Below are positions 42,659-49,556 of a stretch of DNA of 64,000 nucleotides, one piece after another; position 1 is the stretch's first letter, and each line of letters begins with the position of its first letter. The position numbers and the translations under genes are program-made. The stretch is from Zunongwangia profunda SM-A87 (lineage in GTDB: Bacteria; Bacteroidota; Bacteroidia; Flavobacteriales; Flavobacteriaceae). Below the pieces are notes generated by a model. That model ran no database searches, had not been told where the DNA came from, and worked only from the letters and a program-made list of their open reading frames with translations. The stretch lies in NCBI RefSeq assembly GCF_000023465.1, contig NC_014041.1, forward strand, positions 5,013,501 to 5,077,500, given 5' to 3'.

Positions 42659-44260
42659 TTAGGATAACAGAGGTAGTATACAAATAAATTTATCTTCTAC
42701 TATTTTCGTTTTAAAGCTATCAACTTCGTAATAATTATAAATATTCTTTAAATAAGTTAAGCCTATTTTATGACCTTCAATATGTTCTTTCTTTTTGGGA
42801 GAATAATTATTGGTAACCGTAACATGGGTATTATTTATTTCTACTTCAATGTTTAAAGGATTGCTTTTTGTGATTTCATTATGCTTTATGGCATTTTCCA
42901 CCAGGGTTTCTAAGGACAGTACGGGAATTTTTTTATAAAAAATCAACTCATCATCACTTTGGTTTACAATCGTAATATTTAAACTGTTTTTAAATCGGAT
43001 TTTATGCAGAAAAATATATTGCTCCAGGAAGTCCAGTTCTTTTTTAAGGCTCGTTAGATTATCATCCCTGTTTTCCAGCAAATAGCGATATACATCTGCA
43101 AGTTGTAACACAAATTTTTGGGACAGATTGGGTTTGGATTCAATAAGATAGTGTAGCGAATTAAGCGTATTAAAAAGAAAATGGGGATTCATTTTCTTTT
43201 TAAGTTGATTTAGCTGCAGTACGGCATTTTCTCTTTGGTAATTTTCGTTGGCTATAGCCAGTTGTTCCTTTTCTTTCTGTACGCTTAAATTCTCGTTATA
43301 TTCTTTTTTCAGCTGAAATCTTGCGATAAGCAGCAATGACATAAATGTGATAAAGGCCAGTAAACTAATCCAGGAAAAATAGCGCTGAACTTCTACAGTG
43401 GTATCCTGGAGATCAAACTTCACGAAATTAGCCACCACGATAAGGTCCTGATCTCCTATCATCACCTTGTCAAAATAGCGCACAATGTCCAATCCCAGAT
43501 ATTGCGAAATTCCGTTGTTTTTCAGCACCTCGTTATCAGATTGGTTTAGGATATCTGAAATAGCAAAGAAATCAAAATACGAGGGTATTTTTTTTCCAAT
43601 ATTGTCAACTTCGGGATGTAGCAGGCATATGCCATTTTTGTTGAAAACGGTGGTATAGGAATTTCGTTCCTTATATTTTTCTGAGTAGTATTTCCAAAAC
43701 GCTTTTAAATCAACGTCATACCCCACAATCACAGTAGTGTCTTTATTTTTTTTAAAAACATAAGCCTTCCGGTTAAGTACTTTATCTTTAGAAATGATTA
43801 TCGTATCCAAAGTTCCCTTTGCAGCGTCCAGCAGCATTTTTTTATTTGGAATGGAAGGCTCACTAAATTCGGCTTTCGGTCTTAAATGTTCCGTTTCCTG
43901 AACACCGCCAGGCGTGATGGTATATACATAACTACCGGAATTTACCGCGTTCGATAAAGCTAAATCACTTACAAAATTCAGTTTGTTGATTAAGGTGCTT
44001 AGGGGAACATCTGAAGCGTCTTCAATACTATTTTTAGCATAGTTTAAAAAACTGTTCAATTCTAGAAATTCAGAAGCTATAGTATTCTTTTTAGAATAAA
44101 GGTCTGTCTCTCTTACATCTTCCATCAGGCCTGAAGACACAGAGGTTATTTTTGGGGTAATTAAAGAGCTTCCTATAAAAAAGCCAATAATGATCAGAAG
44201 ACTTAAATAGAAATATTTCTGATGTTTTCTAAACCGTCTTAAATAGTTAATAAGTTCCAT
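42659..44260 (-). CDS. LytS-like sensor histidine kinase with extracytoplasmic sensor domain
   Basis: A 533-aa membrane kinase. Membrane segments at about 18-36 and 312-332 flank a periplasmic sensor of about 270 residues resembling a double Cache/PDC domain (SYVYTITPGGV, YTTVFNKNGICLLHPEVD). A coiled coil follows, then the His_kinase domain with the phosphorylated His360 in NPHFLFNTLNSL and a C-terminal ATPase domain (LETLVENAIKHNE). It is encoded 1 nt downstream of its LytTR regulator. Cache domains usually bind small ligands such as amino acids, which fits control of a protease and peptide-uptake operon. Confidence 0.9.
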   Translation of the reverse strand: MELINYLRRFRKHQKYFYLSLLIIIGFFIGSSLITPKITSVSSGLMEDVRETDLYSKKNTIASEFLELNSFLNYAKNSIEDASDVPLSTLINKLNFVSDLALSNAVNSGSYVYTITPGGVQETEHLRPKAEFSEPSIPNKKMLLDAAKGTLDTIIISKDKVLNRKAYVFKKNKDTTVIVGYDVDLKAFWKYYSEKYKERNSYTTVFNKNGICLLHPEVDNIGKKIPSYFDFFAISDILNQSDNEVLKNNGISQYLGLDIVRYFDKVMIGDQDLIVVANFVKFDLQDTTVEVQRYFSWISLLAFITFMSLLLIARFQLKKEYNENLSVQKEKEQLAIANENYQRENAVLQLNQLKKKMNPHFLFNTLNSLHYLIESKPNLSQKFVLQLADVYRYLLENRDDNLTSLKKELDFLEQYIFLHKIRFKNSLNITIVNQSDDELIFYKKIPVLSLETLVENAIKHNEITKSNPLNIEVEINNTHVTVTNNYSPKKKEHIEGHKIGLTYLKNIYNYYEVDSFKTKIVEDKFICILPLLS

Positions 44261-44261
44261 T

Positions 44262-45038
44262 TTAATGATTTAACCACTCTTTAAAAGCGTTGATCGTCAT
44301 TGAACTTATTAATATGGGGCCGCCACTGCCGGGAGACGGACTTAATTCTATTTTTAGGCGATTTTGGCTATATTTTACAATAGATTTTATGGCATTATGA
44401 CTAATAATAAATTTCCTGTTGATTTTAAAAAACTCTTTTGGAGCCAGTTTATCTTCTAAATTTAGAATCGTACTATCATACAGATACACCTGGTTATCCC
44501 TGGTAAACAGGAATAAAGATTTATTCTCTGCCATAAAATAGGCGATTTCTTCACTTTTAATCGATATTAATTCTTCTCCCTGAGAGACCAGGAAACGATT
44601 TTGAATTTGTGGTGTTTGCAGATCCGGTAATGTTGTTTTAAGCCGTTCCAGTAAATTCTCTACATGATCAGATTCCTTTTTACTACCCACAAAGTTGATG
44701 TATTTTTCCAGGGCTTTGTCGAGTTTCTGCTTATTATAAGGCTTAAGTAGGTAATCAATGGCAAAAAACTGAAACGACTGTACCGCAAAATGATCAAAAG
44801 CGGTGGTGAAAATGATGGGAATTTGAATGTTTAAGGCATTAAAAATTTCAAAGCTTTCCCCATCTCCCAGGCTTATATCGCTAAAAATGAGATCACAGGA
44901 ATTATTTGTAAACCATTCCTTTGCCTGTTTAATATTCTCTAACCTGGCCACTATTGTAATCTCGTATTTCGATTTTAACAATAAGCTTTCTAAGGATTCT
45001 GCCGCTAAATCTTCATCTTCAATAATTACGACTTTCAT
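44262..45038 (-). CDS. LytTR family response regulator
   Basis: A 258-aa cytoplasmic transcription factor. The receiver domain (1-120) has the acidic pair in IIEDED and the phosphorylated Asp54 in IFSDISLG. The C-terminal LytTR DNA-binding domain (about 155-255) has EELISIKSEEIAYF and FFKINRKFIIS. It forms a two-gene unit with the kinase downstream, and the candidate operator at 42622-42651 suggests control of the metalloprotease-susCD operon. Its promoter must lie in the AT-rich region above 45038. Confidence 0.92.
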   Translation of the reverse strand: MKVVIIEDEDLAAESLESLLLKSKYEITIVARLENIKQAKEWFTNNSCDLIFSDISLGDGESFEIFNALNIQIPIIFTTAFDHFAVQSFQFFAIDYLLKPYNKQKLDKALEKYINFVGSKKESDHVENLLERLKTTLPDLQTPQIQNRFLVSQGEELISIKSEEIAYFMAENKSLFLFTRDNQVYLYDSTILNLEDKLAPKEFFKINRKFIISHNAIKSIVKYSQNRLKIELSPSPGSGGPILISSMTINAFKEWLNH

Positions 45039-45300
45039 TGTAGGGATAACAGTCTTAAATGTTGATTTTTAGTACTCTATTTTAAAAAAACTAGGCAATA
45101 TTACTAAAAACCAAGAAGGATAAATTCATTTTGATTGCTAATCTTTAGAGTTTTAAGAATATATCTTATTTTACTCGTTTACTTTTCATTTATCTCAATT
45201 TTAAGGATTTAAAAAACTATTTATTTAAATATGTTTAAAAAAACTGATATCCTTTAAAGTACCCCAAGCTCTCTTTTTATCCTGCAAGTTCAGGATACTA
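45039..45300. other. AT-rich intergenic region before the guide-RNA units
   Basis: No gene is visible. The region should carry the promoter of the LytTR gene (minus strand). A hairpin ATCCTG-CAAGTT-CAGGAT lies at 45279-45296, just beyond the second guide. It lacks a T-run on the minus strand, but could define the 3' end of the distal guide RNA. Confidence 0.4.
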
Positions 45301-45411
45301 TTGTAGCTTAAGGCCAACTATTGTACAGGCTACATGCATTTAGTGAGTGTTATTAAGAAACCTCAGCTTGCGGGTGTATAAGCATCCTCTTTATGGAGTT
45401 CAAACCACTAT
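45301..45411 (-). ncRNA. Second guide RNA unit (scaffold plus guide) for the dCas12f-like protein
   Basis: A diverged copy of the first unit. Scaffold 45411-45321 opens with ATAGTGG (matching the last codons of the dCas12f gene, although no gene ends here). It contains GAACT (45397-45401) pairing with GGTTT (45358-45362) through two G-U wobbles, and the shared 16-nt block ACACTCACTAAATGCA, and ends with TACAA. The adjoining 20 nt, TAGTTGGCCTTAAGCTACAA (45320-45301), differ from the first unit and are the likely guide. The first 54 nt are about 85% identical to the other copy. Changes such as CCC/GGG to TCC/GGA keep base pairing, which is evidence for a functional RNA. Confidence 0.65.
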
Positions 45412-45485
45412 TATGGCGATGCTGACTTTAGGAGGATTATCTATTATGCATAGGTCAATTCATCATAATTACAATTCATTTCAGT

Positions 45486-45602
45486 AATTAAGCCTAGCAC
45501 TAATTGTTGTATATGCGATTTGCATTTAGTGAGTGTCATTAAAAATCTAAACCTCACCTTACGGGTGTACAAGCACCCTCTTAATGGGGTTTAATCCACT
45601 AT
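45486..45602 (-). ncRNA. First guide RNA unit (scaffold plus guide) for the dCas12f-like protein
   Basis: This structured RNA is read in the same direction as the dCas12f gene and overlaps its last codons and stop, as TnpB omega-RNAs do. Scaffold 45602-45506: TAAACC (45593-45588) pairs with GGTTTA (45553-45548) and encloses small hairpins (CCC-ATTAAGA-GGG or the alternative GGGTG-CTTGTA-CACCC). Then come the conserved block ACACTCACTAAATGCA, a hairpin ATGC-AAATC-GCAT, and TACAAC at the 3' end. A loop TTGTA is complementary to the terminal TACAA, a possible pseudoknot of the kind seen in Cas12f/TnpB RNAs. The following 20 nt, AATTAGTGCTAGGCTTAATT, are the likely guide. Exact RNA ends are inferred. 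Confidence 0.7.
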
Positions 45603-46691
45603 AAGTTCAATTCCGGCCTTTTCGGCCTTGTATTTTATTTTAGTCATCAGCTCATAATAATTCCAATTCCTTAAAACAAATCCGTTTTCATTTTTGGCGA
45701 TTTCTATTTTATCTTCCTGGTTTAGCAAAATAAGCGTTCCGGCTTGATGTTTAATACAAAAATCAATAAGCTTTCGACTGTATACATGCAAGCGGTTACT
45801 TATATAGCCTTTTTCATGGTTATGGAATTTTTTCACTGCTTTTGTTTTACGTTTACGCCCTTTTCCCGGTCGGCAATAGGTAGCCCCGGTTTGCGTTCTT
45901 CTTCGAGCAGCCTGTATGGCTAACCTCCTGTATAAAAACTCTTCACGATTGCCAATACTCATTTTTTCCTTACCCGATTTTACCATAATAGGATATTCAA
46001 GCGATAAAGAAGCTTCTGCAATGACTTCCGGTTTTAGGCTATGCTTTTCTTTTTCAATTTCAAAGGTAGCCAGCATAAAGATCTTATTGTCTTTTAATTT
46101 GATGTGGGAAGTACACAGTTTGGTTTGCCCTGCTACTAACTTTTCCAACAACTTTTTCTTATCGGTATGATCCCTTCCTAAATACGTCTTTAGCGGGATC
46201 GAGAATAGTCGAAAACGAAAGGTACTTTTTTCCTTATCATAGGACAATCCATGAACTCCATCCCTATGAAAAGGAAAGGCCATATTTCTTTTGAAATTCA
46301 TCACCGAGCGTTCTCCTCTCCAGTATTCCTCACGATAATAATTAAATGTCGTTATGATTTTCTTGTTCAGTGCATTTAAAATGAGGGTGGGTATTTCTCC
46401 TTTAAACCGATTGGATAATACCCGGTAAATGGAATTCATCCGGGAACGATTTAGGAGGCCTGCTTCATCTTTCTTTTCATCGACCAGTTTATATCTTATC
46501 CCTTCTGATAGATAAAAGAATTCCTTGATCATTTCCTGAATATACAGATGGGTTATAATAAGATTAGCCGCCCTATAGCTTCGATTTTGCCAGCGGTATA
46601 GCGTAACAAGCGCCTCCTTTCTTTCTTCTTTGGTAGGAGCATCCACCTTCAATTGAATGGTTCGGGTGAGCTGAATGGTTTCTTTTCCCAT
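45591..46691 (-). CDS. Nuclease-dead TnpB/Cas12f-like RNA-guided protein
   Basis: A 366-aa member of the TnpB/Cas12f group with an inactive RuvC domain. The N-terminal wedge/REC part (about 1-215) is rich in basic residues. At RuvC-I the usual V-D-L-G-I-A-Y-P is A-S-L-S-L-E-Y-P (227-234), so the catalytic Asp is Ser228. At RuvC-II the usual E-D-L is L-N-Q (Leu323). The chain aligns further (NWNYYELMTKIKYKAEKAGI) and stops at IELIVD, just before the zinc finger and RuvC-III Asp. Loss of all three acids with retention of the RNA/DNA-binding body is typical of exapted regulators (TldR, dCas12f). It lies 2 nt after a sigma-factor gene and ends in a guide RNA. Confidence 0.85.
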   Translation of the reverse strand: MGKETIQLTRTIQLKVDAPTKEERKEALVTLYRWQNRSYRAANLIITHLYIQEMIKEFFYLSEGIRYKLVDEKKDEAGLLNRSRMNSIYRVLSNRFKGEIPTLILNALNKKIITTFNYYREEYWRGERSVMNFKRNMAFPFHRDGVHGLSYDKEKSTFRFRLFSIPLKTYLGRDHTDKKKLLEKLVAGQTKLCTSHIKLKDNKIFMLATFEIEKEKHSLKPEVIAEASLSLEYPIMVKSGKEKMSIGNREEFLYRRLAIQAARRRTQTGATYCRPGKGRKRKTKAVKKFHNHEKGYISNRLHVYSRKLIDFCIKHQAGTLILLNQEDKIEIAKNENGFVLRNWNYYELMTKIKYKAEKAGIELIVD

Positions 46692-46693
46692 GC

Positions 46694-47473
46694 TTATGCC
46701 GATTGTTGTTGTTCGTGTTTTTGCTGCAGCAATCTATAGGCGGTCATAAATTCCTTATGCACTTCCTTTTGAGAAAGTTTCAGTTCTTTGGCTATAGCCG
46801 CAAAGGAGTACTGCTTTTCATTACGCAGTTGTAATAGCTTTTCCTGTTCCGCAGTCATCCTGCCCGGTAGTTTTACCGTAACCACCTTTTTTGGTTTGGT
46901 TTCCAAATTATTGCCTTGATGGATAATTTTTTTAATATCCTCGATGGCTCTTTTTACCTCGTAGCTGGTGTAAGCGGTACTGGTTCCCATAACCTGGGCA
47001 ATGTTCTTATATTGAAAACCGTATGTTATGCAGAGTTCAATGAGACGACGTCTTTCAGCACTTAACAACGGAAAAACACGTCTTATCCGGTCGAAGGCTT
47101 TTTGGTCGGCTTCCTGATCCCGTAAATGTGGATCTTCTGAGTCCGGGTCAAATCCGTGCATATATTCCTGGTAGTCCGGAAAAAACTCCAGTCTGCCCAT
47201 ATTCCGGTGAAACTTATTCCTGGGGTGGCAATAGTAATAGGTACACTGGCGTTTCATCACATGAAGAAGGAAGTAGAGCATATGTTTAGGATCTTCTATA
47301 TGATCTCTTTTCTCCCATAATTTTAGGAACGTATCCTGAAGAATGCTCTCGATAACAAATTCATCCTTAATTAACTGCTTCCCCATCCAAAAGAGCTTAT
47401 GCTGATATCGGGCATAAATAAATTCCATGGCATCAGGATGCCCTTCTTTTAAAAGTTTAAACTCACGTTCCAT
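46694..47473 (-). CDS. ECF-type sigma-70 family factor with extra C-terminal domain, partner of dCas12f
   Basis: A 259-aa sigma factor. The ATG at 47473 (MEREFKLL) is preferred to a TTG two codons upstream. Region 2 is at about 12-78 (ILQDTFLKLWEKRD, typical of Bacteroidota ECF sigmas), and region 4 at about 126-183 (LLSAERRRLIELC, helix-turn-helix in YKNIAQVMGTSTAYTSYEVK). Unusually, about 70 more residues follow, with a second helix-turn-helix-like segment (SFAAIAKELKLSQKEVHKEF). ECF factors are normally 170-200 aa, so the addition may contact dCas12f or DNA. No anti-sigma gene is adjacent. It lies directly upstream of the dCas12f gene, with which it is surely cotranscribed. Confidence 0.87.
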   Translation of the reverse strand: MEREFKLLKEGHPDAMEFIYARYQHKLFWMGKQLIKDEFVIESILQDTFLKLWEKRDHIEDPKHMLYFLLHVMKRQCTYYYCHPRNKFHRNMGRLEFFPDYQEYMHGFDPDSEDPHLRDQEADQKAFDRIRRVFPLLSAERRRLIELCITYGFQYKNIAQVMGTSTAYTSYEVKRAIEDIKKIIHQGNNLETKPKKVVTVKLPGRMTAEQEKLLQLRNEKQYSFAAIAKELKLSQKEVHKEFMTAYRLLQQKHEQQQSA

Positions 47474-47475
47474 AG

Positions 47476-47495
47476 CCAACAGTTTTTAATGTTGG
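47476..47495 (-). promoter_or_regulatory. Hairpin just before the sigma-factor start codon
   Basis: CCAACA (47476-47481) and TGTTGG (47490-47495) form a 6-bp stem with an 8-nt loop ending 2 nt before the ATG. On the mRNA it could restrict ribosome access and hold down translation of the sigma factor. It would be a leader structure of the sigma-dCas12f operon. Confidence 0.35.
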
Positions 47496-47922
47496 ATCGG
47501 ATCTTCGAAAAGGGACTGTACTAATAAGTAATAGGAACCTAGCGGTGTGGAGTATAGTTTTCATAATTTATTGTGGTTTGTTTGTCTTTAACTAATTTGA
47601 AACCATAGGCCTTCCCAAAAAAGCCGTTAAACTTAGGGAAAGGCTTATATAGCTTAAGGGAAGGCTTTCTGGCTTCTAGCCTAGACTAAATGGCTAATTC
47701 ATTAAACGCTGGTTTCTTCTTATAGGTTTGGTTTTATAATTATATCATTATTAAATCAAGTCTTATACTGGCCGAAAAGAATAGTGCTATAGAGTTTCTA
47801 TTTACAATAGATGCTATATAAATGATTACATCATTGCTTAGTGATCTCAAATATAGTAAAAAACTAAAAAGGATACATATATGTATCCTTTTTTTGTTTT
47901 AGAAAATGTGACTTTTATCCTA
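47496..47922. promoter_or_regulatory. Divergent intergenic region between the sigma factor and the XRE gene
   Basis: About 430 nt without a gene that should hold the promoters of both divergent units. An 8-bp inverted repeat, GCCTTCCC (47609-47616) with GGGAAGGC (47658-47665), has AAGCC/GGCTT inside it, making a possible operator or cruciform. At 47866-47893 a separate 28-nt perfect palindrome occurs. No clear -33/-7 pair was found by eye. Confidence 0.45.
47866..47893. terminator. 28-nt perfect palindrome (terminator or operator) before the XRE gene
   Basis: AAAAAGGATACATA followed by TATGTATCCTTTTT is a perfect palindrome with extra T residues after it. As RNA it forms a hairpin with A/T flanks, as an intrinsic terminator would. 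Its position 30 nt upstream of a small XRE repressor start also makes it a candidate autoregulatory operator. Confidence 0.55.
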
Positions 47923-48174
47923 ATGTCAGATAAAAAGCTCATAACAGAGAAAAAAGCGCTAGGATCGAGAATTGCTGAACTCAGAAAAAAAGTTATTGAT
48001 CCAAGCACAAATAAGCCTATTTCACAAGAAGAATTAGGATTGAGAACAGGAAACGCAAAAAAGACGATTGGTGAAATTGAAAGGGGGAATACTAATCCGA
48101 CTTTTGAAACTTTATTTAAAATCGCTCGAGAATTAAAAGTTCCGATTATAGAACTATTTAATTATTCGAAATAA
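47923..48174 (+). CDS. Small XRE family transcriptional regulator
   Basis: An 83-aa single-domain HTH_3 protein. The frame is open from 47881, but the ATG at 47923 (MSDKKLITEKK) avoids reading through the palindrome upstream. The domain covers about 15-78 (LGSRIAELRKK, ISQEELGLRTGNAKKTIGEIERGNTNPTFETLFKIARELKV). Such short repressors are typical of mobile elements and defence modules. It is divergent from the sigma-dCas12f operon and may regulate it, or it may simply be cargo near the IS110 element downstream. Confidence 0.85.
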   Translation: MSDKKLITEKKALGSRIAELRKKVIDPSTNKPISQEELGLRTGNAKKTIGEIERGNTNPTFETLFKIARELKVPIIELFNYSK

Positions 48175-48572
48175 AGAGAAAATATCTTGAAATTGAAAGA
48201 GAAGGTAGTAAACTAACCAGTTATGACAGCAGAAGAAAAGTTCATCAACTCCGTTAAACATCGTTTAATGTTTATTGTATCGAAAATTGGGCTTGAATCT
48301 AAAATATAGTTCTTGATACAATTCTGCTTCGTTTCATAGCGAAAAATCACTCCTTTAGACTTGTATTGTTATTTTTATAGCAGTATTAACAAAGAAAAGA
48401 GAGCTGAACTCGGGTACACTAATATCGCTCAGAACATAAAGTTCATCGTTCGATTCAGACCCAAGTTCAGACTTTCATCAACAATCTCTAATAGAAATTC
48501 GGGATATAAGCCCATTATCAAGGAGTTGAGTTATTGATGAAATCCCTCTTATCTACAAAGCATTACAAAGTT
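48175..48572 (+). other. Intergenic region with likely IS110 left end
   Basis: 398 nt between the XRE gene and the transposase. A 28-codon reading frame (48223-48309) is too short to support. From about 48310 the sequence probably belongs to the IS110 element and holds its non-coding left end with the candidate bridge RNA. The boundary between host and element is not recognisable, as IS110 elements lack clear inverted repeats. Confidence 0.45.
48404..48470 (+). ncRNA. Candidate IS110 bridge RNA segment
   Basis: CTGAACTCGGG (48404-48414) pairs with CCCAAGTTCAG (48460-48470) with one mismatch, enclosing a 45-nt internal region. It lies about 100 nt before the transposase. IS110-group elements encode a bridge RNA upstream of the recombinase, made of stem-loops whose internal loops base-pair with donor and target. 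This is the expected position and shape, but loop pairing was not verified. Confidence 0.45.
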
Positions 48573-49556
48573 ATGAAAAGTATTTATGTAGGTATCGACA
48601 TTAGTAAAAACACGTTGGATTTTTGTGTTAGATCTTCCGGTGTGGCAAGCTTTCACAAGATCGGCAACAAAACCAAAAGCATCCGCAAGCTTTTGAAAAG
48701 CATAGCCAAAATAGATTCCAAGGCTTTTATAGCCATGGAAAACACGGGGTATTATAACTATAACCTTTACCAAACCCTGAAAGGCTTTGATTTTAACGTC
48801 TATGTGATAGACCCCAAGCATATCAAAAGGAGTATCGGCCTGGTGCGCGGTAAGAACGATAAGGTAGATGCCAAGAGGATTGCCATATTCATTGAAAGGA
48901 ACCATCAGGATTTTGAATGCTGGGAACCTTGCAGTGAAGCCATCAGGTCTTTAAAGATATTGATGGGCCAACGTAGATCAAAAATCAAGCAGCGCAAAGG
49001 GATCAAACAGCAAATGGCCGATTTAAAGGATATTGTATTTAATGGCAGTACCAGAAAACTGATCAAGATCAATCAAAAGGCCATCAAAGAACTGGATAGG
49101 CACATCCACGAAATAGAAACCTTGATCCGTGCCGAAATCAAATCGGACCCGGTTTTACAGGAACAGCTCAAAAGGATCAAGACCGTACCGGGCATAGGGG
49201 ATGTTACCGCTTGGATGATCGCCATCAAAACCGAAGGCTTCCAACGTTTGACCGATCCAAGGAAGCTCGCCTGCTTTGCAGGGGTGGTACCCTTTGAGCA
49301 ACAGAGCGGCACCAGCCTAAAAACCAGGCCCAGGGTATCGAAAATGGCAGATATGGCCTTGAAGTCCGTACTTCAGATGGCCGCTATGAGGGCGGTAAGG
49401 ATGCAAAATGATCTGCAGGTATATTACCTAAGAAAAGTCGAAGAGGGCAAAAATAAAATGAGTGTTCTAAATGCGGTCAGGAACAAATTGTTACACATTG
49501 CTATGGCACTAATTAAAAACCAAACAAATTATAAAAACCGCTTGGAATTGTCATAG
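48573..49556 (+). CDS. IS110 family transposase (bridge-RNA-guided recombinase)
   Basis: A 327-aa recombinase from the ATG at 48573 (MKSIYVGIDISKN). An upstream TTG at 48534 is less likely. The N-terminal DEDD RuvC-like domain shows Asp in YVGIDIS, Glu in FIAMENTGYY, and two Asp in VRGKNDKVDAKRIA. A coiled region follows (about 130-190). The C-terminal Transposase_20 domain has RIKTVPGIGDVTAWMI and FAGVVPFEQQSGTS, whose Ser is the likely nucleophile. The gene appears intact, so the element may be active. Confidence 0.93.
   Translation: MKSIYVGIDISKNTLDFCVRSSGVASFHKIGNKTKSIRKLLKSIAKIDSKAFIAMENTGYYNYNLYQTLKGFDFNVYVIDPKHIKRSIGLVRGKNDKVDAKRIAIFIERNHQDFECWEPCSEAIRSLKILMGQRRSKIKQRKGIKQQMADLKDIVFNGSTRKLIKINQKAIKELDRHIHEIETLIRAEIKSDPVLQEQLKRIKTVPGIGDVTAWMIAIKTEGFQRLTDPRKLACFAGVVPFEQQSGTSLKTRPRVSKMADMALKSVLQMAAMRAVRMQNDLQVYYLRKVEEGKNKMSVLNAVRNKLLHIAMALIKNQTNYKNRLELS

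Follow-up and report, generated by a model that had tools for sequence, protein, structure and literature searches.

What does an operon do that couples an ECF sigma factor to a Cas12f-like protein, and which genes does it control? The question is raised by a locus of Zunongwangia profunda SM-A87, lying in the window analysed here (the whole stretch of 64,000 nt). The initial annotation, made from the letters alone, proposed an RNA-guided transcription module consisting of (i) a sigma factor gene, (ii) a gene for a catalytically dead TnpB/Cas12f-like protein, and (iii) two scaffold-plus-guide RNAs.

The operon, its proteins and its relatives

On the minus strand of the window, an ECF sigma factor gene (46694–47473) is followed by the gene for a nuclease-dead Cas12f protein of 366 amino acids (dCas12f; 45591–46691) and then by two guide RNA scaffolds. 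The proposed gene order, strand and 2 nt gap all agree with the open reading frame coordinates (gap, 46692–46693). The sigma reading frame, whose stop codon ends at 46694, has two possible starts: an ATG at 47473 (259 amino acids) and a TTG at 47479 (261 amino acids). Both it and the dCas12f frame are intact, and the gap between the two genes measures 1–2 nt in 54 of 55 relatives. Genes for a histidine kinase and a LytTR response regulator (42659–45038, minus strand) lie directly downstream of the guide RNAs.

Pfam and NCBIfam identify the first protein as an ECF sigma-70 factor, with an extra region-4-like stretch near residues 207–241; compared with PDB sequences, it matches chain C, 'RpoE', of entry 9n9q (E 1.1e-83). 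The Pfam/NCBIfam match of the second protein to TnpB/Cas12f is weak. Its best PDB match is 9n9c, 'Nuclease-deactivated Cas12f' (E 2.2e-169), and active Cas12f proteins rank next. The dCas12f chain of 9n9c is common to 9n9m, 9n9o and 9n9q, and thus 9n9q holds both proteins. The titles of these entries include 'dCas12f-gRNA complex' (9n9c) and 'dCas12f-gRNA-DNA complex (partial R-Loop)' (9n9m). The proteins of the Allomuricauda taeanensis operon (L023) show zero mismatches to the solved chains over 364 (dCas12f) and 261 (sigma) residues. That system and the window operon share the same two proteins, their order, the scaffold and the lost residues; identity is ~69% for dCas12f and 49% for sigma. 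They differ in that the window has two guide RNAs where the A. taeanensis locus has one, and in their guides and operon leaders.

The initial annotation also held that RuvC residues had been lost, and an alignment with the active Cas12f of 9nzo, read by hand, bears this out. The catalytic residues of Cas12f RuvC are, we assume, the Asp of VDLGI, the Glu of MERL and a third Asp in the zinc-ribbon part. In the window protein VDLGI is replaced by EASLSL, placing Ser228 at the position of the Asp, and Leu323 stands in the column of the Glu. The alignment stops ~90 residues short of the end of 9nzo, which means that the window protein lacks the zinc-ribbon part and, with it, the third Asp. Ser228 is invariant in all 30 aligned relatives. 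The protein thus lacks the intact acidic residues of an active Cas12f/TnpB nuclease. With the type V-F CRISPR-Cas12f nucleases (9nzo, 7wju) it has fold and sequence family in common; unlike them, it has lost the RuvC residues and the C-terminal part, and two scaffold-guide units replace the CRISPR array.

Two known kinds of nuclease-dead homologue come into question. TldRs, reportedly described by Wiegand in 2024 as TnpB-like nuclease-dead repressors, act at promoters as stand-alone proteins with no sigma partner; what sets dCas12f-sigma systems apart is activation, and two preprints on dCas12f-sigmaE reportedly describe activation of transcription, with initiation at sites that lack promoter motifs. 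The window protein is, like TldR, a nuclease-dead, RNA-guided TnpB/Cas12f homologue, but a sigma gene is attached to it in the operon. PMC13418256 also treats TldR, as a repressor. The operon holds a RuvC-less Cas12f homologue, an adjoining ECF sigma factor of matching lineage and a downstream scaffold, as in dCas12f-sigmaE systems. The matches to 9n9c and 9n9q thus support the earlier assignment to dCas12f-sigma systems and, at the level of sequence, membership of the already solved dCas12f-sigmaE kind. Our literature search returned no dCas12f-sigmaE paper among the matches listed.

Across the species genomes scanned, 65 dCas12f loci were found, two of them fragments; going by record title, all are flavobacterial or at least from Bacteroidota. 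Among 60 genomes around that of the window, nine have a match at E 0.001 and seven a full-length copy; six of these seven, the window's own included, belong to the same family. A second dCas12f-sigma operon (L002) is present in the window's genome, its dCas12f being 74% identical. In Salegentibacter, L066 and L067 hold dCas12f fragments, and a guide scaffold remains downstream in L066.

Guide RNAs and their matches in Zunongwangia

The two repeats read as scaffold-plus-guide RNAs form a 55 nt direct repeat (75% identical, spacing 186). Both fit the scaffold covariance model R1, in whose building set they were: scaffold 1 (45506–45580, minus strand; alignment A1) scores 86.7 bits and scaffold 2 (45320–45389, minus strand) 65.1 bits. 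The proposal of two scaffolds stands to that extent; the second looks degenerate, with broken pairs in all three stems when read by hand, and only the first is intact. At least three scaffolds are present in the window's genome, scaffold 1 scoring highest, and no further ones were found among the 150 of 1111 candidates scored. Across the family, 60 of 67 operons have at least one recognisable scaffold, giving 86 in all; an alignment of the 84 distinct sequences predicts 17 pairs, of which eight show double changes. At the gathering score, Rfam gave nothing in the window and only two tRNAs in the loci of seven relatives.

The scaffold ends, at its 3' side, in CATATACAAC. With the boundary set there by conservation only, and a guide length of 20 nt taken, guide 1 occupies 45486–45505 and guide 2 45300–45319 (both minus strand). 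Searches of the whole genome with guide 1 (allowing 3 mismatches in 20 nt, 2 in 16 or 1 in 13) returned the guide itself and four short matches inside unrelated open reading frames; those with guide 2 (3 in 20, 2 in 16) returned itself and two matches, both within open reading frames.

Among SusC leaders of the genome, guide 2 matches L149 and L152 at 13 of 16 positions, next to a G, which we take to be the TAM of dCas12f-sigmaE targets (6 of 300 shuffles do as well). These two weak matches lie ~85–112 nt ahead of the SusC genes that start at G000 2394836 and 3555676. The best SusC leader for guide 1 reaches 12/16, a value equalled by 71 of 300 shuffles; guide 1 has no convincing genomic target. 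The guide of the paralogous operon L002 fits L152 at 14/16 (1 of 300 shuffles as good), the site being preceded by A. Among 15 guides from five genomes of the same genus, five match SusC leaders of their own genome at 13–15/16 with no shuffle of 300 as good, two have 1 and 6 of 300 shuffles as good, and one has 26; seven, guide 1 among them, are at chance (at least 58 of 300). Sites of the CCTTCCC type are preceded by A or C, not G. On these numbers, the link from guide to SusC leader in the window operon itself is weak.

The leader of the window's own sigma gene (47480–47760, minus strand) resembles leaders that precede SusC genes elsewhere in the genome: a blastn comparison with the upstream regions of 29 SusC genes gives L152 (5.6e-7), L151 (2.4e-5) and L149 (8.3e-5). 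It differs in type from the leader common among relatives (class A, below). A hairpin at 47560–47740 is weakly supported (fold z -2.06, a value that 5 of 200 shuffles reach). The two window guides reach 12/16 and 11/16 at this leader, both lacking the G; since neither fits, feedback is unsupported in the window operon.

Class-A leaders of relatives

In many relatives the guide reads GCGTGGGCTCnCTTATT or near it, and the same segment is found ahead of the operon's sigma gene, within a leader that folds as a conserved hairpin (32 sequences). Guides were compared with the leader of their own sigma gene in 84 of 86 cases (the other two lack upstream DNA, and that of L065 starts with N). Sixteen of the 84 match at 13/16 or better, where 20 shuffled rounds give 0–2 of 84; the remaining 68 fall below. 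In 15 of the 16, the match lies on the sense strand and G precedes the site, the exception being L057 (opposite strand, no G).

A covariance model of the leader (R2), for which nearly all sequences came from sigma operons, detected 47 copies, spread over 19 of 24 genomes (150 candidates per genome scored; L039 left out). Within 2 kb downstream lies a SusC gene in 24 cases, a dCas12f-type sigma gene in 12 and neither in 11; two of these last run into the end of a contig, where a SusC-like start can be recognised by eye. Three strong copies in the window's genome stand ahead of SusC genes (L127 3174, L128 2310 and L129 7717; G000 3705173, 4372309 and 2395716); a fourth, weak one does not. For one of the three modules, SusC, SusD and an M16 peptidase were checked with Pfam; in the other two, SusD and peptidase were recognised by eye only. 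Weak R2 copies (E 1e-4 to 1e-5) with altered stems and no SusC or sigma gene downstream were seen at L130 (G000 3687025–3687114) and at L196 and L197 (G067), and possibly represent a related element in mobile DNA.

Leaders of a guide's own genome were scanned from the leader element downstream; of 54 rows (guide by leader type), 21 match at 13/16 or better, and in 20 of these a G precedes the site. The rows are not independent, because the segment and its G are conserved. For the same reason, a guide often finds an equally good fit in leaders from other genomes. The guide of the solved A. taeanensis system is a different one, whose best SusC-leader site is 13/16 with G. A guide of that type in A. 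abyssi matches its own SusC leader at 15/16, better than any of 24 other SusC leaders.

What the guides match in class-A leaders becomes apparent from alignment A4, which covers 65 leaders; 79 copies had yielded 69 distinct ones, of which L130, L196, L197 and L198 were dropped as weak or aberrant. The central segment can form two alternative helices. With a downstream arm (ATAAG..CCACGCC) it forms a terminator helix, 98.8% of cells being paired (65 leaders, 62 distinct), where slid controls pair in 39–58%. Four of 12 pairs show double changes, a number reached by 2 of 500 shuffles; 59 of 65 leaders have at least four consecutive T after the downstream arm. With an upstream arm (ATAAG..GCTCACG) the same segment would form an anti-terminator helix, likewise paired in 98.8% of cells; covariation is little here, and its one double-changed pair is reached by 57 of 500 shuffles. 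The downstream arm lies 58–64 nt from the first target base. For six chosen leaders, folding gives the long hairpin, the z values ranging from -3.9 to -6.4. Terminator helix plus T run are found in class-A leaders of relatives and of the three SusC operons of the window's genome.

A promoter scan of one leader for the consensus was at chance (2 found, 2.4 expected). A terminator scan of that leader found 3 where 0.4 were expected, the anti-terminator hairpin among them; the long terminator hairpin was missed because its loop exceeds the limit of the scan. One leader compared with Rfam gave nothing near the gathering score, and no Rfam family matches class A in the leaders scanned. The class-A leader is a predicted attenuator, and the 5' arm of its terminator equals the class-A guide, which Cellulophaga baltica (L049), for example, carries. 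As in known attenuators, one segment could pair with an upstream or a downstream partner, and a T run comes after the latter; it differs from them in that the shared segment doubles as the guide of an RNA-guided system. Among the matches listed by our literature search, there is no description of guides copying terminator arms.

Regulatory genes and palindromes accompany these leaders. Divergent to the window sigma gene is a Cro/C1-type HTH gene (Pfam HTH_3; 47881–48174, plus strand), which probably starts at an internal ATG at 47923. An IS110-family transposase gene (48534–49556, plus strand) lies on its far side. The paralogous operon has an HTH gene of its own (L002 3771–4049, plus strand). 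With a profile built from first-pass matches, a divergent gene of this type was found beside 44 of 60 sigma operons of relatives with enough sequence and beside SusC in 9 of 13 modules examined; no match in the same orientation was found in either set. A palindrome that separates the window's sigma leader from its HTH gene (47859–47900), with 21 nt arms (86% complementary) and a perfect core of 14 nt arms, is a candidate operator. Of 54 distinct leaders, 35 are preceded by a palindrome whose arms have a length of 7 or more, compared with 9.4 in mononucleotide shuffles; many of these palindromes lie at one position, and their sequences differ between modules. A candidate word, TAnnTT[TA], occurs upstream of most leaders.

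Mode of action and biological meaning

What the computed anatomy, homology to solved complexes, scaffold conservation, guide-leader matches and two alternative helices suggest, with a probability of about 0.8, is that the window carries a dCas12f-sigmaE operon for RNA-guided transcription. The guide RNA, made downstream of the dCas12f gene, would load dCas12f; the complex would open the DNA beside the TAM (G in most sites found) and leave it uncut; and the partner sigma factor would bring RNA polymerase, such that transcription starts downstream of the R-loop. The most likely natural targets in the family are the leaders of SusC-SusD operons, joined in many species by the sigma-dCas12f operon's own leader. 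The guide being the 5' arm of the terminator, transcripts started beyond the R-loop would lack that arm, and RNA-guided transcripts of class-A species may thus skip attenuation. RNA binding, activation, feedback and bypass of the attenuator are the steps that we infer.

The position of the matched sites would also suit repression, in which leader-bound dCas12f blocks polymerase as a TldR does and the sigma factor serves another purpose: the sites lie within leaders, where a polymerase coming from any promoter further upstream would have to pass, and palindromes and the candidate word stand ahead of most leaders. We consider this improbable, as the near-constant 1–2 nt spacing to a sigma gene and a solved entry with both proteins fit recruitment better. 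A guide acting on RNA, with or without dCas12f, is very improbable. Having the same sense as the central segment, it could base-pair in the nascent leader with the upstream or the downstream arm, shifting the balance of terminator and anti-terminator; however, a G before 20 of 21 sites is what DNA targeting would be expected to give (the G itself being in the conserved segment), and 9n9m is a DNA complex with a partial R-loop.

The remaining alternative concerns this copy rather than the kind: the window operon may be decaying, its guides left with no targets and the function carried by the paralogue L002. A degenerate scaffold 2, a guide 1 that finds no target and the better SusC match of the paralogue's guide speak for this; two intact reading frames and the top score of scaffold 1 among the genome's three (150 of 1111 candidates scored) speak against it. 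We regard decay as unlikely, if well worth bearing in mind, and even a decaying copy would still be a member of the dCas12f-sigmaE kind.

Returning to RNA-guided activation, a wider version for the Flavobacteriaceae is possible and put forward tentatively: a single guide would bypass attenuation of several uptake operons and feed back on its own synthesis, with an added HTH layer, making up an RNA-guided attenuator-bypass regulon. Initiation just past the 5' arm of the terminator would yield transcripts unable to terminate; the divergent Cro/C1-type regulators, with palindromes specific to each module, would form the second layer; and the genus of the window would have shifted its guides to sites closer to the SusC start codon.

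The dCas12f-sigmaE kind is already known; what is added here is a computed case for what it controls in relatives. Systems of this kind would be natural programmable activators, and the contents of their guides suggest a role at outer-membrane uptake operons (SusC-SusD, in one checked case with an M16 peptidase gene) and at the relatives' own operon. If guides do target terminator arms, RNA-guided initiation would be a way round an attenuator.
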